NCBI GenBank assembly: GCA_022747635.1
Contig: JAKTNV010000003.1
Span: forward strand, 49,395,475-49,459,474
Source of the DNA: Hetaerina americana
Taxonomy: Eukaryota; Arthropoda; Insecta; Odonata; Calopterygidae
Direction: 5' to 3'
Length of the DNA stretch: 64,000 nucleotides
Position 1 is the stretch's first letter. Each line of letters opens with the position of its first letter. The translations under genes and the position numbers were made by a program. Positions 12,546 through 54,500 of this stretch are shown one piece after another. The notes beneath the pieces were generated by a model. The model was given only the letters and a program-made list of their open reading frames with translations. It ran no database searches and was not told where the DNA came from.

Positions 12546-12812
12546 TATATTTTTAGATGCAACTATTTCAGAGCGTAAAAATCATTCGCCTTGACTGGGA
12601 CTCGAACCCAGATCCCTCAATATCCGGTCGAGTGCTTTAGCCACTTAAGCTACCGAGGCGTCCTCTTAAACTCCGAAATTTTGGGGCTTTTAAAGGAACT
12701 AGATGATTTTTACGCTCTGAAATAGTTGCATTGAAATGCACATTAGCGGATGACTCCGTTAAAAGTTACTGTTGCGGCATCTCCCGCAGTTTCTTTGGAA
12801 TATATTTTTAGA
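12546..12812 (+). mobile_element. tRNA-like element insertion, inverted plus direct block, 12-bp target duplication
   Basis: The body at 12558-12800 is flanked by perfect 12-bp copies of TATATTTTTAGA (12546-12557 and 12801-12812). The left block (12558 to about 12705) is the reverse complement of the family unit seen in the 26.6-30.1 kb array and carries the 73-nt tRNA-like sequence on the - strand. The right block (about 12703-12800) is a direct segment ending in CCGCAGTTTCTTTGGAA. The two blocks meet at an ATG shared by both unit orientations. Because both cover the same unit segment, they form 29-bp perfect inverted repeats at 12557-12585 and 12703-12731. The copy differs slightly from the array (for example AACTATTTC where the array has AACAATTTC). 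Confidence 0.85.
12587..12659 (-). repeat. tRNA-like sequence (SINE head)
   Basis: A 73-nt cloverleaf can be drawn on the - strand: acceptor GCCTCGG/TCAAGGC with one C-A mismatch, D arm GCTT/AAGC, anticodon arm CTCGA/TTGAG with loop CCGGATA, a 4-nt variable loop, and T arm CTGGG/CCCAG with loop TTCGAGT. The A box (TAGCTTAAGTGG) and B box (GGTTCGAGTCC) are good Pol III promoter matches. Position 33 is C instead of U, so I treat it as tRNA-derived rather than a working tRNA gene. Confidence 0.75.
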
Positions 12813-15800
12813 GTCAAACATTCCCGAATTGGCATATTCGACTAATGACAGCATGTTTTATCTTCTGTTAAATTGAAGGACGAGAAATGTTTTTCTTTAC
12901 ACTCAAAATCTAGTCTTATAAATTGGACACCCAAATATACGTGACCTGGTAAATATCATTTCTCATGACAGGAACAAGCTATATTCCTAATCTATTTATA
13001 AAATACCATGCCTTAAATAACAAAAACGAAGAAAAACGTCCATAAAAATCAATATCAGTACATTTCTTTATATTTGGATGATGCTAAATATTATCATAAT
13101 ACATTCAAATAAAAAATACGCTTTTGCTCATTATTTTCAGCATTACCGAGAAACGCATCATATACAGGTAATAATTAAAATCATGCAAATGGACGGTTGT
13201 GAAAAGAAGATGTGGGGGTGTTAGTTTAGGCAGGTACTCGTATGCATTCAGCGAAAAATCTTTGAAGGTAACACAACAAATACCATCAAAATCAATGTAA
13301 AACACTCCAATATAATTCTAAATAAACATTAACATTTGAAAATATACATTTCATCTCATTCACATGATACCCTCATACAAAATTTATTAAAATAGCTTGA
13401 AAGTTTTTAAATGCTCATTATGTTGGAAATATTTGACGAGAAATGTATGGTTGCTAACAATACAAGGATTATCAGCGATTAATTGAGTTAAAGTGAGTGG
13501 TAAAATTTGATAAACCTACCAAAACGAAAGTAGCACTCATTTACAGTCTCATAAATACATTTGTCGGTGTGGTATCCGTACTTTAAACTTTTATAGATGA
13601 TTTAAAGCAAAATCGTCTATAGAAAGTATTATCCTAAAAATATCGAAATATTAACTGCCTCTAATTTAGATGCATATATTATTCAAATAATAATGGGAAC
13701 AACCGAACGATTTAGTTGACAGTTTTTTCAATATGAAACAAATAGACCACTTACTGAAGAATGCTCGAGTAAAGATAAACCAGCCTATTTCGACTATTTT
13801 AGCTCGGTGGATATTCAAATAGTACCGAACCTTAGAAACAGTCTATGTAATTAATGAGACCGACATTTTTTAGAATTAAATGCACTATTGCCTCTTCCGA
13901 TCTCATTCTTTGCCCTGTACGTTTTCCGCGCACACTAAATAAACTACGCTCAAAGATTATTATTACCCGTTCATCAGATCTTATTAGCATTTGAGTACAT
14001 TTTCGTGGTCACGCCGAAAATATATTTCAAGAAAATGCCTCCGTTTTTAGCGTCGAAACAGGCCTCGTAATGGAATTAGGGGCACTAAAGACTGCGACAG
14101 AGGTTCGGAAATTAAAAAAAAAACCTCGCTCGTGTATTCACTTGGAATTAAAGAAAAATAAAGCTTTGGATGGAAGAGATGACCTTTGGCCCTTCGACCT
14201 TAGCCATTCGAAACTATTGATGTCTGCTGCAAAGCACAGGGTAGAAAAGTTGAGGCGGCGGCCAGCTAGGATGCCGATTAGTTCAAACAACCGGGAATGA
14301 ATCAAAGCAGCAAGATAAAAATACCCAAAGATATAGAAGTGTTTCTTAGCTTAAACACATCCAGCGCTTATTCCTTCAGGGTGCATATTAAATATGCGAG
14401 TACGCAAGATACAAAAATGAATCACGTAATAAAGAATGTAAGTACATAGTGATCCACGGACTTTTTATTTCTTAATATTCAATTGATCACGGAAAATTAT
14501 GACTTATAGCTATGATGGTGAAAAAACAATTCCTATATAACTGCGCATACAACTACTACTGAAAGAAAAGTGGGACACACCACAATTAATTGGCATAGAT
14601 CCTAAATTGATTTCACAAGAGAACAATAAGCAAAAATTATTCCGAAAGTGACATAATTAAAATTCCTTAACTCAGAGTATTGGATGACCCACAAGAGAAC
14701 AATAAGCAAAAATTATTCCGAAAGTGACATAATTAAAATTCCTTAACTCAGAGTATTGGATGACCATCAATTTCTTTCAAATCTCATCAAATGACGTATA
14801 TATAAAGTAGGAAAGATGTTTATTCCGGTTCGCTGCTGAAATTTCACCCGTGATCAACAGAAAAACACATTTATATCAGAAAGTAAATTCGAGACCAACA
14901 TTAATATTGCAAAAATAATACAAGTACGTTGAATTGCAAGAGAGAATTTTCTAAGTTTTATGGGTACTCAGAAATAAATTAATAAAAGCACATGCCCTAT
15001 TCATGCGAAATATGCGAATTGAAAACAGATCAATGCTAATGAATGAATTTCTGCCGTGACATGATGAAACGGCCTCATGTGGTTGAAAAATTCTCAATAA
15101 TGCCTCATAAGTTCCAGATTCAATAATACATATTTATTATTTTGGAAATCACGAAGGGAAACAATAACCCCACAGGAAATATTATTTCTCAACTCTAATG
15201 TTATTCGTTAGTGAGGCCATTGATTTCTATACCATTTGACACAGGGAAATGGAAGCTAAAATCTATAAATAGCACTCGTAAAAAAATCTTCCAGTTTTGT
15301 TTCCGTACATGATATTTCTATACTAATACTAGTATATTAAAGTAATTTTCTCAAAGGAAAACCAATGTTTAAAGCCTTAACTTAAGGAAACGAAATAAAA
15401 TCATATTCAAGCAAGACGTCTTTGCATCCAATGCCTCTTATGACCAAAACAGAAGGAGGCGATTCCTATAGACGGTGTCACAAGGGGGAAAGAAGGACGA
15501 AAGCACAAATTATATGGACGGGAAGGAAGAGACAGGAGACAAGAAAGTAGACGAGTGGAATTGGAGCAATGGAAAAGACTCGAAAGAGTGTTGAGGAATA
15601 AGGGACGGAGAATAAAATCGTGAGGGGGGAAAACAGAGGTTGGTGTGGAAGAAGAGAGATCTCTCCGACGGAGATAGACGAGGAGAGGGGGAGATGAGGA
15701 GGGAGAGGGATAAGCTGACCTGGCGAACACCCAGGAAAATGTAGTCTTGCGTTCGCGATCCTGCACCGCCATGGCTTTGCCAGCTTGGTGGACCCAATGG

Positions 15801-26628: not shown

Positions 26629-26640
26629 AAGATAATGAGT
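26629..26640. repeat. Target site duplication, left copy
   Basis: AAGATAATGAGT, identical to 30132-30143 on the far side of the array. Confidence 0.85.
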
Positions 26641-27178
26641 TCCAAAGAAACTGCGGGAGATGCCGCAACAGTAACTTTTAACGGAGTCATCCGCTAATGT
26701 GCATTTTAATGCAACAATTTCAGAGCGTAAAAATCATTCGCCTTGACTGGGACTCGAACCCAGATCCCTCAATATCCGGTCGAGTGCTTTAGCCACTTAA
26801 GCTACCGAGGCGTCCTCTTAAACTCTGAAATTTTGGGGCTTTTAAAGGAACTAGATGTTATGACGAAATACCGTACATACAATGTCACATGCATTCGTAG
26901 TCGTGCGCGAGGCGCCACTGTCCACGAGGTTAAAAGCCAACTTTAAACACGTATGGTGTTTTCCCTTTGACAAATTCCAAAGAAACTGCGGGAGATGCCG
27001 CAACAGTAACTTTTAACGGAGTCATCCGCTAATGTGCATTTTAATGCAACAATTTCAGAGCGTAAAAATCATTCGCCTTGACTGGGACTCGAACCCAGAT
27101 CCCTCAATATCCGGTCGAGTGCTTTAGCCACTTAAGCTACCGAGGCGTCCTCTTAAACTCTGAAATTTTGGGGCTTTT
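26641..27178 (-). repeat. Opposite-orientation block of the array (~1.6 units)
   Basis: Starts TTCCAAAGAAACTGCGGG, the reverse complement of the family's right terminus. It contains two - strand tRNA-like sequences at 26739-26811 and 27074-27146, 335 bp apart. It stops after GGGGCTTTT at 27178, where the direct block begins. TTT at 27176-27178 fits either block. Confidence 0.88.
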
Positions 27179-30131
27179 GGAATTTGTCAAAGGGAAAACA
27201 CCATACGTGTTTAAAGTTGGCTTTTAACCTCGTGGACAGTGGCGCCTCGCGCACGACTACGAATGCATGTGACATTGTATGTACGGTATTTCGTCATAAC
27301 ATCTAGTTCCTTTAAAAGCCCCAAAATTTCAGAGTTTAAGAGGACGCCTCGGTAGCTTAAGTGGCTAAAGCACTCGACCGGATATTGAGGGATCTGGGTT
27401 CGAGTCCCAGTCAAGGCGAATGATTTTTACGCTCTGAAATTGTTGCATTAAAATGCACATTAGCGGATGACTCCGTTAAAAGTTACTGTTGCGGCATCTC
27501 CCGCAGTTTCTTTGGAATTTGTCAAAGGGAAAACACCATACGTGTTTAAAGTTGGCTTTTAACCTCGTGGACAGTGGCGCCTCGCGCACGACTACGAATG
27601 CATGTGACATTGTATGTACGGTATTTCGTCATAACATCTAGTTCCTTTAAAAGCCCCAAAATTTCAGAGTTTAAGAGGACGCCTCGGTAGCTTAAGTGGC
27701 TAAAGCACTCGACCGGATATTGAGGGATCTGGGTTCGAGTCCCAGTCAAGGCGAATGATTTTTACGCTCTGAAATTGTTGCATTAAAATGCACATTAGCG
27801 GATGACTCCGTTAAAAGTTACTGTTGCGGCATCTCCCGCAGTTTCTTTGGAATTTGTCAAAGGGAAAACACCATACGTGTTTAAAGTTGGCTTTTAACCT
27901 CGTGGACAGTGGCGCCTCGCGCACGACTACGAATGCATGTGACATTGTATGTACGGTATTTCGTCATAACATCTAGTTCCTTTAAAAGCCCCAAAATTTC
28001 AGAGTTTAAGAGGACGCCTCGGTAGCTTAAGTGGCTAAAGCACTCGACCGGATATTGAGGGATCTGGGTTCGAGTCCCAGTCAAGGCGAATGATTTTTAC
28101 GCTCTGAAATTGTTGCATTAAAATGCACATTAGCGGATGACTCCGTTAAAAGTTACTGTTGCGGCATCTCCCGCAGTTTCTTTGGAATTTGTCAAAGGGA
28201 AAACACCATACGTGTTTAAAGTTGGCTTTTAACCTCGTGGACAGTGGCGCCTCGCGCACGACTACGAATGCATGTGACATTGTATGTACGGTATTTCGTC
28301 ATAACATCTAGTTCCTTTAAAAGCCCCAAAATTTCAGAGTTTAAGAGGACGCCTCGGTAGCTTAAGTGGCTAAAGCACTCGACCGGATATTGAGGGATCT
28401 GGGTTCGAGTCCCAGTCAAGGCGAATGATTTTTACGCTCTGAAATTGTTGCATTAAAATGCACATTAGCGGATGACTCCGTTAAAAGTTACTGTTGCGGC
28501 ATCTCCCGCAGTTTCTTTGGAATTTGTCAAAGGGAAAACACCATACGTGTTTAAAGTTGGCTTTTAACCTCGTGGACAGTGGCGCCTCGCGCACGACTAC
28601 GAATGCATGTGACATTGTATGTACGGTATTTCGTCATAACATCTAGTTCCTTTAAAAGCCCCAAAATTTCAGAGTTTAAGAGGACGCCTCGGTAGCTTAA
28701 GTGGCTAAAGCACTCGACCGGATATTGAGGGATCTGGGTTCGAGTCCCAGTCAAGGCGAATGATTTTTACGCTCTGAAATTGTTGCATTAAAATGCACAT
28801 TAGCGGATGACTCCGTTAAAAGTTACTGTTGCGGCATCTCCCGCAGTTTCTTTGGAATTTGTCAAAGGGAAAACACCATACGTGTTTAAAGTTGGCTTTT
28901 AACCTCGTGGACAGTGGCGCCTCGCGCACGACTACGAATGCATGTGACATTGTATGTACGGTATTTCGTCATAACATCTAGTTCCTTTAAAAGCCCCAAA
29001 ATTTCAGAGTTTAAGAGGACGCCTCGGTAGCTTAAGTGGCTAAAGCACTCGACCGGATATTGAGGGATCTGGGTTCGAGTCCCAGTCAAGGCGAATGATT
29101 TTTACGCTCTGAAATTGTTGCATTAAAATGCACATTAGCGGATGACTCCGTTAAAAGTTACTGTTGCGGCATCTCCCGCAGTTTCTTTGGAATTTGTCAA
29201 AGGGAAAACACCATACGTGTTTAAAGTTGGCTTTTAACCTCGTGGACAGTGGCGCCTCGCGCACGACTACGAATGCATGTGACATTGTATGTACGGTATT
29301 TCGTCATAACATCTAGTTCCTTTAAAAGCCCCAAAATTTCAGAGTTTAAGAGGACGCCTCGGTAGCTTAAGTGGCTAAAGCACTCGACCGGATATTGAGG
29401 GATCTGGGTTCGAGTCCCAGTCAAGGCGAATGATTTTTACGCTCTGAAATTGTTGCATTAAAATGCACATTAGCGGATGACTCCGTTAAAAGTTACTGTT
29501 GCGGCATCTCCCGCAGTTTCTTTGGAATTTGTCAAAGGGAAAACACCATACGTGTTTAAAGTTGGCTTTTAACCTCGTGGACAGTGGCGCCTCGCGCACG
29601 ACTACGAATGCATGTGACATTGTATGTACGGTATTTCGTCATAACATCTAGTTCCTTTAAAAGCCCCAAAATTTCAGAGTTTAAGAGGACGCCTCGGTAG
29701 CTTAAGTGGCTAAAGCACTCGACCGGATATTGAGGGATCTGGGTTCGAGTCCCAGTCAAGGCGAATGATTTTTACGCTCTGAAATTGTTGCATTAAAATG
29801 CACATTAGCGGATGACTCCGTTAAAAGTTACTGTTGCGGCATCTCCCGCAGTTTCTTTGGAATTTGTCAAAGGGAAAACACCATACGTGTTTAAAGTTGG
29901 CTTTTAACCTCGTGGACAGTGGCGCCTCGCGCACGACTACGAATGCATGTGACATTGTATGTACGGTATTTCGTCATAACATCTAGTTCCTTTAAAAGCC
30001 CCAAAATTTCAGAGTTTAAGAGGACGCCTCGGTAGCTTAAGTGGCTAAAGCACTCGACCGGATATTGAGGGATCTGGGTTCGAGTCCCAGTCAAGGCGAA
30101 TGATTTTTACGCTCTGAAATTGTTGCATTAA
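27176..30131 (+). repeat. Direct tandem block, 335-bp period (~8.8 units)
   Basis: Units start (GGAATTTGTCAAAGGG) at 27179, 27514, 27849, 28184, 28519, 28854, 29189, 29524 and 29859. The last is cut at 30131 after TTGCATTAAA. Each unit holds a + strand tRNA-like sequence, at 27346-27418, 27681-27753, 28016-28088, 28351-28423, 28686-28758, 29021-29093, 29356-29428, 29691-29763 and 30026-30098. A T5 run lies 5 bases after each tRNA-like sequence. A 10-bp inverted repeat (AATTTCAGAG / CTCTGAAATT) flanks it. The 67-codon reverse-strand frame repeated in each unit is a by-product of the repeat. Confidence 0.92.
27346..27418 (+). repeat. tRNA-like sequence, first direct unit (representative)
   Basis: A 73-nt cloverleaf with U8, A14, GG at 18-19, A21, TTC at 54-56 and A58 in the right places. 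Stems are GCCTCGG/TCAAGGC (one C-A mismatch, one G-T), GCTT/AAGC, CTCGA/TTGAG and CTGGG/CCCAG. The loop CCGGATA would give anticodon GGA (Ser), but the variable loop is only 4 nt where a Ser tRNA has a long arm, and residue 33 is C. So it is a tRNA mimic or derivative, not a normal isoacceptor. Internal A and B boxes and the TTTTT at about 27424 could support a short Pol III transcript. Confidence 0.75.
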
Positions 30132-30143
30132 AAGATAATGAGT
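30132..30143. repeat. Target site duplication, right copy
   Basis: AAGATAATGAGT, matching 26629-26640. Confidence 0.85.
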
Positions 30144-35541: not shown

Positions 35542-35809
35542 TTGGGTATATGATGGGCACCTATACAAACCATATTTGTTAAAGCCCTATATTTTTCATT
35601 GATTTTATACTAATTTCCACATGCATTATTCGAAATAAACTATTGGGTTCACTAGTTACATGATTAGCTATTACTTTTTCCATTTGAATGAGATGAGTTA
35701 ATGAAATCAGGTTCACGATTTCATAAGGTTTTCGTTTTATATAAGGCTCATTAAAATATTGCAATGTATATTGAAAAAGAAAACTTGGTTTTTCCACATA
35801 AAATATTTA

Positions 35810-35852
35810 TTCACGACCTAGGTTTCGACGCTCAGCGTCATCTTCAGGTGAA
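35810..35852 (-). ncRNA. Hammerhead ribozyme (type I, PLE-associated)
   Basis: On the - strand: stem I TTCAC/GTGAA (5 bp); core CTGAAGA; stem II GACGC/GCGTC closing loop TGA, with one unpaired T between the core and stem II; core GAAA; stem III ACC/GGT with a 2-nt TA loop; and cleavage triplet GTC. The predicted cut follows C at 35815, between 35815 and 35814. PLEs are known to carry hammerheads in their terminal repeats, commonly with a very short stem III that may act better as a dimer. The extra T is the one departure from the textbook core. Activity is inferred, not shown. Confidence 0.8.
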
Positions 35853-36079
35853 ATACAGGCCAAAATCTTTCTTTATATAACAGAAGGAATGGGGAGGTGG
35901 GGGGTGGGTGTATGGATGTAAGAAAGGAAGAGGAGATAATGGGGGAGGGAAAGGAGCGGGATTGGGGTATTACTGTGAAGGAGGAGTCAAGGTTAGCCTC
36001 CGGGGGGGGGAGGGAGGGGTGGGGGAGGTTAAGGAAGCATGGTAGGGAAAGGGTTGCCTGGCGGGGGTCCGCCTTGGGG

Positions 36080-36675
36080 TTAGTGGAGATAGGACAAAGA
36101 GTTTGGGAGTTTAAGGTTGAGGAGGGGTGACCGGGAGTTACATAGCACGTCGTTCACAATATTACAGGTAGAATTCGCTCTTTCCAATATCTCCATATTT
36201 TCCAAAATGTCCAACCGGGGGCCTTTTCTTTCGAAATGGAGAAACTCCACGCTAAAATCACTTTTATGGTTCTGGTCAATCAAATGCTTGGCAAATTGAG
36301 ATTTTCCATTACCGTTCTTCAGGCAGGCCTGGTGCTCCTTCACTCGTTCTCGGAACTTCCTTCCCGTCTGACCTACGTAGACGGCGGAGCATTCACAGGT
36401 TAGCTTGTACACTCCGCTCCTTTCCGATTTTGGGATTTCGTCTTTGTTATTTGCGAGGATGTTTCGCAAGTTGCGTCTATTGTAAAAGGCTGGCTTTATC
36501 CGTTTTTTTGGTAACACTTTAGCGACCGAGAGAGACAACTGTCCTAGGAAGGTAAGCCTGCGCCACTTGGCTTCTGAGAAAACATTATGATTTAAACCAT
36601 ATATTAACAGCGTGCTTAGTTTTTTCCTTTTACTCTGGTATAAACGATCAATTAACTGGGGCGTGTAACCGTTGC
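36080..36675 (-). pseudogene. PLE C-terminal fragment: linker and GIY-YIG endonuclease
   Basis: The open frame runs to a stop at 36080-36082. The frame's first ATG is at 36682, inside the loop/arm-2 part of the palindrome. The genuine PLE sequence begins at about 36675 with NGYTPQLIDRLYQ. The endonuclease has GVYKLTC (about residues 90-96 of the frame), YVGQTGR (102-108) and RERVKEHQ (111-118), with Cys residues at 96 and 98, then HL and a conserved-looking FLHFERKGPR stretch. These are the GIY, YIG, Arg and Glu positions expected of the nuclease that nicks target DNA for PLEs. No RT domain is upstream, so the protein cannot be autonomous. The nuclease frame itself looks intact. Confidence 0.75.
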
Positions 36676-36697
36676 ACAGCAACGGTTACACGCCCCA
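36657..36697. repeat. Perfect 19-bp palindrome at the PLE 5' end
   Basis: Arm TGGGGCGTGTAACCGTTGC (36657-36675), loop ACA, exact complement 36679-36697. Pairing continues outward with one mismatch. One arm is natural PLE coding sequence, so the other is an inverted copy made at or after insertion. Confidence 0.92.
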
Positions 36698-36718
36698 ATT
36701 AGGTTGGTTGCAATGTAT

Positions 36719-40940: not shown

Positions 40941-41204
40941 ATAATATAAATAAAGTAAAATAAAGAAAAATGAGCATGGTGGAAGACGCAATGCGAGGAT
41001 ATGGAAAGTTTGCAGAGGAAGGATGAAATTGGGGCGCTATACAGCAAGGTTTTATCACTATAAAGAAGTAAGAAGGGGAGATCTGTGTTAACATCTAGAG
41101 ATAAGTCGGGTAAGATAATAGTTGGTATATAAAAGATCCAAGAGAGATAGAAGGAATATGTAGAAGAACTGTATGGTAAAGAACTTAGGCCAACAAAGTT
41201 AGAC

Positions 41205-42303
41205 ATGGAAAAGGAACATGACGTAGAGGAAGATAACTTAGGTCCAGGCATACTCGACGATGATATAGAAAGGGCTTCAAGGGAGATGAGGGTAAATAAG
41301 GCCGTTAGGGTAGACAACATTGCTGCGGAACTACTAAAAAGTGTAGGCAAATATGGAAGGAAGAGGCTTTGTGGACTGATTCTTAGCATCTATAAGGAAG
41401 GAAACTGGCCGGAAGACTTTGTGAGATCAGTGTTAGTTCATATCCCGAAAAAGGTAACGGCTATAGCATGTGAGGACTACAGAGCAATAAGTTTGATATC
41501 CCACGCAGCTAAAGTGGTTCTCAGGATCACCAACAAAAGGATAGAGAGTAGGGCAAATGATTACTTAAGGGATGATCAGTTTGGGTTTAGGAAGGGGAGA
41601 GGCGCACGTGATGCCGTTGCAGTAATGAGATCAATAATCGAGAGGGATATAAAATGCAATTAGGATGTATTTGCCTGTTTCGTAGATTTCGAAAAAGCGT
41701 TTGATAGAGTGAATTGGGAAAAAATAATGAGTATATTGCAGAAAATAGGAATAGATTGGAGGGATAGGAGGCTAATCCGCAACCTGTACATGTCTCAGAC
41801 TGCTCAAGTGCTAGTGGGGAACGGGGAGTCCGGTTGGGCAGTGTTAGGAAGAGGTCTAAGGCGGGGTTGCCGATTATCACCGTTGCTGTTCAACCTGTAT
41901 GCAGAGGAAATGATTAAAGAGGCATGGGAAGAACTGGAAGTAGGAGAAGAATACAAAAAATCAGTTAGGTTTGCTAAAATCATTTAGAGCTGGTGACCAA
42001 GCTCTAATTTGTTAGTCAGCCAAGGGGTTGCAAACTTTGCTGAGCGAATTGGAAACTTAATACAATAGATATGGGATGAGAATCAATACTAATAAAATAA
42101 AGGCTATGCGATTTTACAGAAAGAAAAAGGCTAAGCTAAACATTAAAATAGGAGGGCAAAAACTAGACCAGGTAGAACAGTTTACGTATCTCGGAAGTGT
42201 TTTGGACCAACACGGTCAAAGTAATAGGAACGTAAGGAGAAGAATTGCGCTAGGCAAAGTCTTTCAGAAGGAGGAAGGAGTTGATGACGAGGACGCTGAG
42301 TAA
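41205..42303 (+). pseudogene. Broken non-LTR reverse transcriptase
   Basis: Pieces are 41205-41663, 41664-41986 and 42076-42303, interrupted by a TAG at 41661 and frameshifts. Visible motifs: EDYRAISLISHAAKVVLRIT, DDQFGFRKGRGARDAV, motif A FVDFEKAFDRVNWEK (41685-41726), and motif B GLRRGCRLSPLLFNLYAEE (about 41851-41910), where the usual Q of RQGC is R. Motif C is lost: near 41986 the shifted frame reads RAGDQALI where FADD or YADD is expected, so a catalytic aspartate has become glycine. Later FTYLGSVLDQHG is the conserved post-RT motif. The enzyme cannot work. Confidence 0.82.
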
Positions 42304-45215: not shown

Positions 45216-48200
45216 ACTAGAAGGCGAGTGAATTAAACATGAGTTCTCCACGGGGCTGCCATAAAGTGAAATCAGACAAGAGATTTCGGGTGTTATTAAT
45301 TCACATCTAGCTCATATGACCCAAAAATTCACAGTTATACACTCACCTAATTGTAACATCCAGTGTATAGAATAAGTATAATAGTTTCCTTAGCTTTTCT
45401 TAGCTGATATACGTAAGGCCGTGCTAAGTGGAACGCAGTAGACGTTACCGACCAACCAAAACCTAACTTCAATTGATATATTTTTTTGAATGAAATACGG
45501 CGCTAGTTTTCATGGCTAAGGTTTGGGAAGTACATTTTCATTTTTTTTTCAAAAATGGCCTACAGTAATCACGGTAACTGCTACTTATTTCTAATAGCGA
45601 CTCTATTAAATTGTCTTAAAATTTCTGCGATACATCTAGGTTTGCTTTGCCTTATATTCCAAAGTAAATTCATAAAATATTAACATAAGAAATGAGAGCA
45701 CAAGTCTCATATACAAGTAAATAGCGAGAAAAACTTATCTTTTAATAGATAATGTGAAATCCTAAAGCCATGAAACCAGTTATGAAACATTATAAAGTAT
45801 ACTGTCATCCTGACGAACCGTCCCATTTCAATTTTTTGATATTTGATTATTCCAAATTTATCATTGTTGCTGCCGTCACAGCTAGTGAAAGTGCTTCGTT
45901 ATGATAGAGATAGTTTTAGTGTGACGTCGAAATAATACAGAAAAAAGATCTACTTTACTTTTTTCCGCTGTCCTTTTTAAATACGCTAGAGTAAATACAA
46001 TTTTCCCAGAGTAACTGCATATTCTTCGTGTGAATTTCCCTAAACAGTACTAGACTTAGGATTGCAAGTTTTTGACATGTTTAAAAGTATTTATTTTTAT
46101 CAAGCCTAGTGTTTTAGGCCAGGTAGATCAATTAGACTATTGTTTTATTAAGGTTTACCGCACATATTCATCTGACGACTTCTCAATCCTCTTTACTCGA
46201 GGATGTTTTGTGCGGGAGTATTTCAAACTCGTGATATGCGTGAAAATTCGAGACACACATGTGGTTCATAGAAAAATATAATTTTTTCAAACAAGTATCC
46301 AAAGCATCGCTATTGTTAACAATATTAATTTATTGAATGCGTTTTCAACATGTCAGCAAATTAATTTATGTGGAGATTAATGCATGCTGTTAAAGTGTAA
46401 GCTGAAAAAGTTCATCCTGACGTAATTTATTCAATAATTGTAGTACAAATTCATTATCATATCCCCGGCATTAAGAATATCCTGGAACATTGAGCATCTC
46501 ACAAGCCTGTCTCGCCATGTAGTTCATCTAAACTTCTCCAGAAGATTTACGCCGAAGAATCGACAGGGTGTAGTAATTATATCTATTGGACATTTTCCAA
46601 TGGGATAAGGAACTGAGTTCCAAGGAAGGTTAGGACAGCAGATATTGCATCACAACCAATGAGAGCGACGCGGTTCAGTCGACATGGCTGTCTATCGATT
46701 CATTTAAATCATTGTGTATCGACCGCAATGTAAAATAGTTGTGAGCATCTCAGACGAAAAACTGTTACACATTCGATTGCAATAATAATATCTTCACATT
46801 AATAGGAGTTTATTACTGTAATTCAATTATCGCTGAACGTATTCCCAATACTGCTGTCTAAGTAATAAGTGGAGTAAATCAAATTGACTATCCCCAATTT
46901 TTTCTAATAATAGGTCTCGCACGAACGTTAAAATACTTCCAGAATATTTTATGCATACAAACTTTAGGAATTCACCACAAATAAAAGAATTTGGATGTGA
47001 CAGCACGTTCATTAACCAAAGCAAACCATTTGAGTGCAAAAATTTCAGAGGGTAAAAATGAGATTAAAAAACATTACAATTTTATGTGCACCTGAAAATA
47101 TTTTCGTGAAATTCAGTTACGAATTAAAAAAATACATAAGAAAGAAAACGTAAGTTAGCATTTTTGATGGAAGTTCGCCATTTTCATTATACCATAAAAG
47201 TAAGTGTTTAAAGGTCATTAGGTGATCATAACTCTTCAATTTAAAGTCATGGATTAAATATTCTTAAACATGACGAAATTAGCTCTCTTAAAACGAAGTT
47301 ATGCACCAAATATTAAATTCCAATACACTTTTGAATTAATAAAGTTTAGCACATTATTTACATTTATACATGTCGATAAAATTTTGACCTTAACTAAAGA
47401 AAATAGAATTGGCTGAATTATAAGCGGGAAGCATATTGATGTAGAAGCTAGAGCTATTCAGCTTTCCATTTCTATCACCTTTGGAAGTGGTAAATGGCGT
47501 GATGAAATTTGTCTTTAGTGTGCATGAATAAGGGCTCAGTTATCACTTTTGCACATAGGTTATCTTCATTCTCGTCCGCACTTCATCATTCTATTGTTAT
47601 TGAATGTCTTACAGTAAAGCATGGAGTTGGCCACGCATCACATGGCACCCGAGTTAGCTTCCTGTCCACTTAAATCGACTGCTTCGAAACCGAAGGGTCT
47701 TAAATAACGGGGACTGAGTAGACGCAGCTATTCTTATCAGTTGCACAGCATCTAGTAATCTTACGATGGTCTTGAGAGCAGGGACACTTCCAGTCTTTAG
47801 TCTTAATGAGATCGGGGTGGAATTGAGACTCACAGCCCTCGTTAACGTTCCCTAGGATTCCTATCCTGTGGCGGTGAGTTTAAATGACTGAAAGCGACAA
47901 CTATTTGGACAACGAAAATAATAGAAAGAGAAAGAGAGAGCAGAGATGAAATAATATAAAGAGAAGTGGAATCCTGTTCCCAATTTACGCATTCACGAAA
48001 TAAAATACCTAGATGAAAATGAAAAATTACGTGAAAGAGAATACCAATACCTTCTCCTGACATTGTATTGTGATTTTGACTGACGTAAAACTATAAAAAG
48101 CAGCGCTTTCCTAAACTGAATTGATGAGAGTTCGTGGGGACAGAAACATGTACCATGAAAAGATTTGTTATATTTATGTTCAAAATTACTATTTTGATCT

Positions 48201-51560: not shown

Positions 51561-54500
51561 GTAAGAAACGATTTCAATTTGCGACCATTTTATGTAAATA
51601 ATATCAATTTTAATACGTAGCTACTTTAATACTTGGCTGGAATATTTTCCTTAGGGAAGGACCTTAGTTTCACCATATTTCCGAGTTTATTTTACGGATT
51701 ATTGGCTTGCTGACCAAATGATAAGTTTGTGGCTTGCGTTCATGGACTGGCACTTCTTTTTCTGTTTCTACATATACATCGACAACTGGGCGACAGCTGG
51801 AGGTAACAGCAATATTTATAGAATCGCTTACTTTTGAATTACCTGCCATTACAAATTTTCGGTACAATTACAATGATATACTATATTTATTCTAGACACC
51901 AGCCACTGCTTGGAACAATCCCTTGCCTCAAGATCTGTTGCAGCATCCATTCCAGCTGCCATAAGATTCATTCAATGCCTCAGGCTCTATAGGGATACTA
52001 AATTAAAATTCCCACACATTGCAAACGCTGGAAAGTACAGTACAGTTTTGTTTGTTTTCACCTTCCTCGCTCTTTTTAGGATCAAAGAAGGTAATTATAT
52101 CTTAAAACAAAATTACATTATTTTAAATCAAATTTTTTATGGCACTGAAAACCGTTAGAAAAGAATCTGAATAGTAAAATAATTTCACAATAACATAAAG
52201 AAATAAGAATTAATAAGCTGCACTGAATGCAACAATTTCAGAGTGTAAAAATCATTCGCCTTGACTGGGATGACTCCGTTAAAAGTTACTGTTGCGGCAT
52301 CTCCCGCAGTTTCTTTGGAAGCTGCACTGAGTTTAATGTATTTAGTGGTTTCGTTGCCTCATGAGTTTCAATATAAAATACGACAAACTAAAGATAATAA
52401 TCACTAAATAATATTTAAAATTTAAATTGTAAACCATGATTTTTTTAAAGGTGACTACTCATCCAACCTCTACAACCCATACTTTGGTTTGTGGGTTCTT
52501 GCCTCAGTTACAAATGCAATTTGGGCGTACCTTTGGGACGTGATTATTGATTGGGGACTTTTTGATACATTTAGGGGCAAAAATAAATTTTTGAAAGAAG
52601 AAATGATGATTCCAAATAAGGTAAGTTTCACATCATTTTGACTCCCAGTAATCCAGCATGTAGTTTAAGGGCGATCACTGTAAATTCATCTCTGGTCAGT
52701 GTATATATTCACAGCAACATTTGTAACCTTATTTAAGTTTTAAATTGACAAGAAGTCAGCAGGATTCTACAAACCCAATTGTGCAACAAGTATCCATAAT
52801 TCGCAATATCTCCTATCACGCCCTACTGTGGCTATAAATGGAATGAAATTATCATGATATAAGCGTAGGAGAAAATTATTTAAATGATGGAATTATTTTA
52901 GTAAATAGAAGCAGATAATAAGTTAAAAAAAAATGTTGATCTTAATTTCAAAATCTTTAAGTGCCAATTTCAAAGTTCCTATTAACTGATAATAGATTCA
53001 AAATTGCATTTAAATATTAATAACTATACAAAAATGAAATAATTCATATTTTGCAGCCACATTACAAGTTTCGAGGCTCAATATAGGCATAATACGTCAG
53101 GTGTCAGTCTATGGAAATTTCTAATATCTATTTTAATGAAATATGCAGCTCTAAAATTTTGCATATATATATTTTCAAACAAACTTGGTTTTAACAAATT
53201 TTATGAAACTTAAGGTACACAGCCCGAACATGTACAGAGTGCTTTAATGCATAATAAACGTCAATACCAGTATTACATCTAATTTGATTAAAATCTACTT
53301 GCATATTTTTGAAAATTTTCATTAGGATTCAACTAATATATTTTGTACTCATGCATGCTAACTATAGCTACCAGGGACTAGTGTTACATTAGCACATAAC
53401 CAACGCACAAAAATAAAAACAATTGAGATGAAAACTCCATAACACAATACACCCATGCATTTGCCAGAATCCTGCAGGCCATCATTTGTTTAACCAGGCT
53501 ATCTATGGATTTAGGCAACCAGCGAATAGAGTTCTCCTGGTGTGTACGCCACCCACTTCACACAACAAATGGATTAAAATTCGTATTTCCGTGGACTGAC
53601 ATTAATATCATCATCACAAATTAAAAACATTGGTAGCAGTTCTTCAATTCCTGATGGGAATAAAGCGTATGAAAACCTGGGAAACCAGAAACATAGATAT
53701 TCTGCGCTGAAAATACTCAATTACAATTTAAATGGAACTACGTACGTTAGTAGGAACTGATTCAGGATCATAGTCGGGTACTTCTTCCTCATTAAATAAA
53801 TTATTTTTATTTCAGTCAATAGTGCTACAATTAATTAGTCCTGTTCCTAACATTAATTTGATTACTTCCACTTTTAATTCTACATTACTTACAGATGAAT
53901 GAGTTATTAGAATGACTAAAATGCTCCCTTGAATTAGCTGACGTCATATCATTCAAAAAGGCGCAAATCTTAACTGTTTGTCATCCAACGGCTAAAGGAC
54001 ATTATCAGTCATTTTAACATAGTACTAAAATGACGTCATATATTATACCAAACGCCGCTAATTCCAATTCACCAACTTCATTGATCTAATAGACCCACAT
54101 TAAACATATTATAATCTTTAAAACGTATTAATTCTTAATGCGTTTTCCAAAAGTATATTTATTTTTTAAGATAGTAATCCGTAGTGAATTGCAATTCCAG
54201 ATAATGTGTAAACTACATTGCTTGTATAATAAAATAAGCACTGCTATCTTTTCAAAAGGAATAAATTACATGTATTTACAAAGAGGAACGATGCGTTATT
54301 AAGTCTGAATAATCACTATGTTACATTTAGCGGAAAGCAAATTATTCTTTCTTTTTCAGTATTAGTAATTCAAAGTGGTGAGCTAAAACTTTTTATCATT
54401 TTGATAGATTATATTTCTTTACAGGGTTACTATTATTTTGCAATTGTCGAAGACTTTGTATTGAGATATAACTGGTTATTACTTTACCTGATGACGCAAA

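Follow-up and report, generated by a model that had tools for sequence, protein, structure and literature searches.

A block of tandem 335-bp units lies inside a 64,000-bp stretch of the Hetaerina americana genome (Odonata; GenBank assembly GCA_022747635.1, contig JAKTNV010000003.1, positions 49,395,475 to 49,459,474 of the forward strand), which we call the window throughout. The 335-bp repeat is real and abundant, a family of non-autonomous retroelements present here in thousands of copies. We argue that the block in the window is an insert of this family, probably copied from one small RNA with a tRNA-like domain by the enzymes (reverse transcriptase and endonuclease) of a Penelope-like element (PLE) of the same genome; the RNA is probably a circle of 335 nt.

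Results

The array is a single insert with fixed ends

The array occupies window positions 26641–30131 (3,491 bp) and consists of 10.4 identical 335-bp units in two inverted arms, with 1.6 units on the minus strand (26641–27178) and 8.8 units on the plus strand (27179–30131). It is bounded by a perfect 12-bp target-site duplication (TSD), AAGATAATGAGT, whose plus-strand copies at 26629–26640 and 30132–30143 are its only two occurrences in the window. The plus-arm match to the unit itself extends from 27176 to 30133; it shares 3 bp (TTT, 27176–27178) with the minus arm at the inversion, and its final 2 bp lie inside the TSD. Within the plus arm, 2,623 of 2,623 comparisons at a period of 335 were identical, and Tandem Repeats Finder returned 8.8 copies at 100%. 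The original prediction of about 10 identical units, inverted as 1.6 versus 8.8 between perfect 12-bp duplications, was thus confirmed at the positions it had given.

The outer ends of the array lie at fixed, not random, unit phases. With 28188–28522 (plus strand) as the reference unit and the first base past GGAA as position 1, the minus arm ends at unit position 335 (...TTTCTTTGGAA), the 'tail' end, and the plus arm at approximately 266–271 (GTTGCATTAA), the 'short' end. The tRNA-like nature ascribed earlier to the units was borne out as well: ARAGORN detected 11 tRNA-Ser(GGA)-like genes in the array (two minus, nine plus), and the domain in the reference unit (28351–28423, plus strand, unit 164–236, anticodon GGA) matches Rfam RF00005 with 46.2 bits. 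No stop-to-stop open reading frame (ORF) of at least 130 aa overlaps 26641–30131, so the array lacks the ORF for reverse transcriptase and GIY-YIG endonuclease of an autonomous PLE.

Sampled inserts combine one short and one tail end

To count the family we searched the 1.63-Gb host genome with exact sequence patterns, whose matches number units, not inserts. The terminal (tail) 23-mer gave 9,839 matches (reversed-pattern control, 0), the tandem unit junction 3,267 and the short-end 26-mer 5,882; the exact tail 23-mer was absent from the viral and prokaryote contigs searched. For a closer analysis we took the first 100 tail matches listed on C1 (0–20.4 Mb) together with the window, a sample chosen by exact tail. 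Removal of two re-sightings (L019 and L024) and of a segmental duplicate (L052) left 93 blocks, 84 with the exact tail (81 from C1, three from the window) and nine others met in passing. The duplicate is one insert seen twice with identical flanks, as L051 and L052 (C1:12453821 and 12463221), 9.4 kb apart.

The 84 exact-tail inserts comprise 67 complete two-arm inserts, 15 with a single arm and two cut off where the sequence read ends. Arms were divergent in all 67 complete two-arm inserts. Their outer ends paired a short end (262–274) with a tail end (≥ 333) in 64 cases and position 279 or 280 with a tail in two more; the remaining one has two tail ends. Four two-armed inserts among the nine without the exact tail ended at 267/334, 326/267, 267/335 and 257/332. 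Arm order was checked with two other anchors, among the matches listed and overlapping the sample: minus then plus in 11 of 11 both-strand clusters anchored on the unit junction (38 clusters in total), and the same order in 26 of 26 anchored on the short end (52 clusters in total). As a check for inserts with two short ends, 32 short-anchored clusters below 20.4 Mb were examined, and in 20 of them an exact tail lay no more than 1.2 kb away. Two of the other 12 were read: L096 has a short end, a tail end with one mismatch and a 12-bp TSD, and L095 has a short end and a second arm that has reached unit 307 where the sequence read ends.

Exact TSDs of at least 10 bp, at most 8 bp from the ends, flanked 48 of the 67 two-arm inserts, compared with one of 1,321 shuffled pairs in which the left flank of one insert was set against the right flank of another. 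The commonest length was 12 bp (25/67). A lack of TSDs in copies elsewhere in the genome and a random unit phase at the ends had both been named beforehand as grounds for refutation; neither was found in this sample. Likewise, neither the absence of TSDs nor the random end phase expected of a satellite characterizes the sample, and a commonest TSD of 12 bp differs from the 4–5-bp TSDs that go with the long terminal repeats (LTRs) of Helenus-type terminal-repeat retrotransposons in miniature (TRIMs).

L047:4001-4441 is the sole tail/tail insert of the 67 and has no clear TSD. Six single-arm inserts (L034, L035, L053, L076, L012 and L056), of 66–70 bp, contain only the stretch between the two end sites (unit ~266–270 to 335).

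The window holds two further inserts, revealed by BLAST of the unit, each with its own TSD and inverted junction. Copy A (12558–12800) has its short end on the left (minus arm) and its tail end on the right (plus arm), its arms overlap by 3 bp where they meet near 12703, and it is flanked by plus-strand copies of TATATTTTTAGA at 12546–12557 and 12801–12812; a twelfth tRNA-Ser(GGA)-like gene was reported by ARAGORN at 12586–12660. In copy B (52227–52320), a 45-nt minus match (short end) is joined to a 53-nt plus match (tail end), again with a 3-bp overlap, between plus-strand copies of AAGCTGCACTGA at 52215–52226 and 52319–52330; this TSD is 10 bp plus AA, and the AA may belong to the element end. 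The array and both copies have the same pair of outer ends, ...TTTCTTTGGAA (unit 335) and GTTGCA(TTAA) (unit ~266–271). A 33-bp remnant of the unit lies at 47027–47059. The original prediction had recognized the array; it had missed copies A and B, the remnant, the thousands-strong family with its near-invariant ends and the link to Penelope. Elsewhere in the window are a fragment of a LINE-type reverse transcriptase (Pfam RVT_1) at 41151–41663 and a 76-bp stretch in perfect tandem duplication at 14614–14765.

The two arms of an insert share variants

We compared the arms of inserts in which they overlap in unit coordinates, and shuffled arms between inserts as a control. Variant sites were common to both arms in 63 of 181 cases (0.35; 60 inserts), and the shuffles had a mean of 0.06 and a maximum of 0.15, with none of 1,000 reaching 0.35. 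When four common polymorphic sites were left out, the shared fraction was 39/146 (0.27), against a shuffle maximum of 0.10. These shared variants point to one template for both arms of an insert.

Arm lengths are weakly correlated (Spearman 0.33, p 0.006). Measured along the unit, the inner stops of the two arms differ by over 10 nt in 49 of the 72 two-arm blocks. Stops accumulate at the 3′ end of the tRNA-like domain: unit 235–239 contains 16 of 122 stops (3.2 per nt), compared with 0.39 per nt in 240–262 (61 blocks, a count that omits all 11 two-arm blocks containing GGATCC). Both tRNA structure and cutting by tRNase Z are candidate causes of this surplus. A second group of stops lies in the T-loop of the tRNA, where L014, L036, L037, L039, L058 and L060 share a blunt palindromic junction (unit 223|223). 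The T-loop modification m1A58 is able to stop copying, and a stop of this kind at unit 223 was considered and dropped, as many of these stops come from the one recurrent blunt join in the six inserts. Such recurrence makes a subfamily likelier than repeated events, and the 223|223 inserts are probably a short hairpin subfamily.

Most arrays are uniform within and differ between inserts

Array spacings were taken from the first 100 unit junctions listed on C1 (38 clusters), and the values given here hold among these matches. Unit spacing is specific to the array, at 334, 335 or 336, with 337 in one single-spacing cluster. Of nine arrays that offer two or more spacings, eight are uniform (334 in five, 335 in two and 336 in one), and in the five for which each arm was measured, the arms agree in unit length. 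Six concordant arm pairs out of six (chance 0.005) had come from 14 arrays listed by hand; that list omitted the clusters with spacings of 319 and 670, and we do not use it as support. Uniformity extends to the sequence of the units. In L086 (5.6 and 4.5 units; TSD ACCAATTGACTTA), a 1-bp deletion is present in all nine covering pieces, and the single variable site among 11 pieces is a singleton; the window array, L080 and L094 have none.

Several laps on a small circular RNA would fit such arrays best, and circularity is what we infer from three features of the sequences: units that are homogeneous and array-specific, arm stops more than 10 nt apart in most two-arm blocks, and zero or one variable site in each of four long arrays. 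The original prediction of a multimeric template, such as a circular RNA, is well supported as regards a repeated template and has the strength of a best inference as regards the circle. A homogeneous linear multimer transcript could yield the same arrays. We regard it as unlikely, if worth serious consideration, that PLE machinery used two start sites on linear transcripts of existing tandem arrays, with no circle. Arrays are plentiful, as the 3,267 exact unit junctions attest, and a homogeneous source would give homogeneous progeny; no circle-making ribozyme was found (see below); and genomic copies seem to act as templates, since L046 and L049 share an inner junction. Set against this, the sources would have to be as long as the longest arm (at least 11 junctions between units on a single strand, at 70179733), and diverged sources should transmit unit heterogeneity, which is scarcely seen in the four arrays, two of them sister loci. 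Moreover, the separated arm stops do not point to one common RNA 5′ end, and the origin of the first array is left unexplained.

The window array has a sister locus 68 kb downstream (G000:C804:49489586-49493760, L094), with 2.6 instead of 1.6 minus-arm units and all units 100% identical. Its flanks match those of the window array with one difference in 150 bp on the left and none over 162 bp on the right, and the PLE fragment of the window (see below) is also repeated, 67,956 bp away. The sister locus is either an unpurged haplotype or allele, or a segmental duplication. A search of the host genome with the joined flanks for an empty allele matched only this array-bearing locus. The extra unit implies either that units can be gained or lost once an insert is in place, or that the assembly leaves the count uncertain to within one unit.

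Two further explanations start from this locus. According to the first, which takes up the later tandem expansion raised in the original prediction, a two-arm insert of about one unit was enlarged by slippage or unequal exchange. The sister locus bears this out to a small degree, as a change of about one unit; the two-arm structure and the fixed ends are left unexplained. Several arrays would have required separate growth of both arms (at least 5/4, 3/2, 4/3, 2/3 and 5/4 junctions) with the same unit-length variant kept, which makes later expansion improbable as the source of the arrays. The second explanation, that array and inverted arm result from repeat misassembly, could draw on a haplotype or collapse error at two near-identical loci that differ by exactly one unit. 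Dozens of inserts with consistent ends and private TSDs are hard to obtain in this way, and we give an artefact hardly any credence, although the exact unit count of long arrays remains doubtful.

Three host PLEs have the same end types

A protein search of the host genome for PLEs returned 11,811 loose candidates, of which 150 were scored. These fall into three main similarity groups (~97, 58 and 55% identity), with many minus/plus pairs and open frames of up to 950 aa. We read one insert from each of three families. All three combined a short end, at or just before the ATG of the ORF, with a tail end ~39–44 nt further on, and their TSDs were 12–13 bp; as they were picked as minus/plus pairs, their divergence is by choice. 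The host PLE ends that we read contain the hammerhead core pattern CTGANGA. The 335-bp family has what an insert made by a host PLE would have, namely one short end, one tail end and a TSD of about 12 bp. Together with the TSDs, the fixed end phases and the variants shared between arms, these PLE-like ends sustain the earlier proposal that the block was inserted as a unit by reverse transcription of a repeated template.

These observations also bear on an origin by LINE-type target-primed reverse transcription with twin priming, that is, an ordinary tRNA-derived SINE. Twin priming starts at variable internal sites, and the second end here is confined to unit 262–280 in 66 of 67 inserts. The tRNA-like domain and the LINE reverse-transcriptase fragment in the window speak for this route, as does the capacity of twin priming to yield inverted 5′ segments, described in PMC2837659. 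Arguing against it, host PLEs show the same short and tail ends and the same TSD length, the tRNA is internal to the unit (164–236) and the inserts have no fixed 5′ end, unlike a SINE with its tRNA at the 5′ end. The unit contains no A run longer than 4 and hence no LINE-type 3′ tail of that kind, a statement about A runs, as no search was aimed at LINE-derived tails. We consider this origin very unlikely.

A PLE also lies in the window itself. This 5′-truncated copy of family F1 (35770–36707, minus strand) has a GIY-YIG ORF fragment at 36080–36685, the hammerhead core CTGAAGATGACGCTGAGCGTCGAAAC, an 11-bp TSD (35759–35769 and 36708–36718) and a 49-bp near-palindrome at its 5′ end. The fragment gave no match in Pfam; we take it to be GIY-YIG from a known PLE motif and from relatives with open frames of up to 950 aa. 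The copy proves the presence of PLEs and is at most a candidate partner of the array.

Predicted hairpins and absence of a hammerhead

Both end sites fall in predicted hairpin loops of the unit. The short-end site lies at the loop of TGCAT-TAAA-ATGCA (unit 262–275), and the tail-end site in the loop of a hairpin over the unit boundary, in which 325–333 would pair with 5–13. Because the latter crosses the boundary, the working RNA would have to be a circle or a multimer, if the predicted fold is right. We found no CTGANGA on either strand of the unit and no hammerhead among Rfam matches with E ≤ 10, and hence no type I hammerhead; nor did Rfam reveal another ribozyme in the unit that would account for circle formation. 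Without a detectable hammerhead, the unit is by definition not a retrozyme.

Discussion

Our preferred reading, which we hold to be somewhat more likely than not, is that PLE machinery copied a single small tRNA-bearing RNA, probably a circle, from both cut strands of the target. A PLE protein would first cut both target strands ~12 bp apart, the stagger indicated by the TSDs. Each cut strand would then prime at an RNA hairpin loop, one at the short site (~266–271) and the other at 335, so that each insert uses one site of each type, as in 66 of the 67 pairs of two-arm ends. The primers would be extended toward lower unit positions, often halting at the tRNA 3′ end, where stops are observed, and sometimes running for the several laps suggested by the arrays. 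Finally, the two cDNA ends would be joined, giving the back-to-back arms. For the window array, the arm primed at the tail site would correspond to 1.6 laps and that primed at the short site to 8.8. In a bolder form of this reading, to which we give slightly less than even confidence, the family would transpose through an RNA circle that carries the tRNA and no ribozyme; a PLE dimer would copy this circle by target-primed reverse transcription of a two-ended, rolling-circle kind, with the two strands priming in separate hairpin loops and following each other for up to ten laps or more.

In its favour, the Anolis PLE enzyme PAc cuts and extends both strands in vitro, and begins copying inside the RNA at two neighbouring sites, which accounts for its 'tail' (PMC11167929).

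Several observations weigh against the preferred reading or limit its reach. The PAc start site did not differ between strands (PMC11167929), and no significant sequence similarity was found between the unit and the regions where copying starts in the three PLE families (best E 1.3). The PLE copy in the window, truncated and with a short palindrome, is without two-site ends. In addition to the tail/tail insert, 15 of 84 tail-bearing inserts are single-armed, an exact TSD of at least 10 bp is absent from 19 of 67 two-arm inserts, and for the two-site rule the analysis covered 22 of the 32 short-anchored clusters. As for the circle, no ribozyme was found to make it, a linear multimer could take its place, spacings of both 333 and 334 occur within one C1 array, and the sister locus has its extra unit. 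Lastly, the first insert of L049 (L049:2252-3064) is an exception to shared variants, as its arms differ at several sites, and it has the same inner junction (unit 289 to 172, AG) as L046:3732-4209, 1.4 Mb away. This suggests that an already inverted copy may serve as template or be re-mobilized, or that two RNAs can be used.

Among known systems, PLEs are the closest in structure. Host PLEs match the family in end types and TSD length, and according to two reports, Poseidon of Anolis (PAc) and Penelope of Adineta vaga form tandem copies with an inverted arm and carry an optional 31-bp tail at one inverted pseudo-LTR end, reminiscent of the tail end here; TSDs in the A. vaga cases are 8–10 bp (PMC11167929; PMC3846280). 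Unlike PLEs, the 335-bp family has no long ORF, a tRNA-bearing unit, no hammerhead, a tail of ~65 instead of ~40 nt, and no detectable match to the three PLE families. The Heliconius short non-autonomous Penelope elements are also short, non-autonomous and assigned to Penelope, a likeness by description only (PMC6685494).

Metazoan non-LTR retrozymes, as portrayed in two papers, are non-coding tandem repeats of 150–450 bp with TSDs, a description that also covers the 335-bp family, and a circular RNA template has been proposed for them with PLEs as candidate machinery (PMC7229834; PMC7761336). The 335-bp family would work like a retrozyme, yet its unit lacks the type I hammerhead on both strands and has a tRNA-like domain; its end structure points to PLE machinery, which the retrozyme papers only proposed. 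Like tRNA-derived SINEs, it is non-autonomous, has a tRNA-like domain and reaches thousands of copies; unlike them, its tRNA is not at a fixed 5′ end, it has no A-rich tail, and it is two-armed and at times multi-unit. Helenus, a tRNA-bearing TRIM, is likewise non-autonomous with tRNA-derived sequence, and differs by the LTRs, the primer-binding site and the short TSDs noted in its description (PMC10886601). Among the matches listed in the open-access literature, judged by titles and abstract openings, there was no tandem element that bears a tRNA, lacks a hammerhead and has PLE ends.

How PLEs integrate, and which enzyme moves the circular-RNA retroelements of animals, are the questions on which the family bears. 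In the retrozyme papers, PLEs are called strong candidate machinery (PMC7229834), and the repeats are said to lack any motif that would reveal the machinery (PMC7761336). On a small tandem element without coding sequence, the 335-bp family preserves an abundant natural record of the ends typical of PLE insertion, and it suggests that such arrays can form without a hammerhead. The two start sites are predicted to be used one of each per insert, a rule that the in vitro work on a single PLE did not report, and one short RNA would be enough to test whether both strands are copied from the same RNA. If our proposal is true, the inserts of this family record how a PLE reverse transcriptase inserts DNA.

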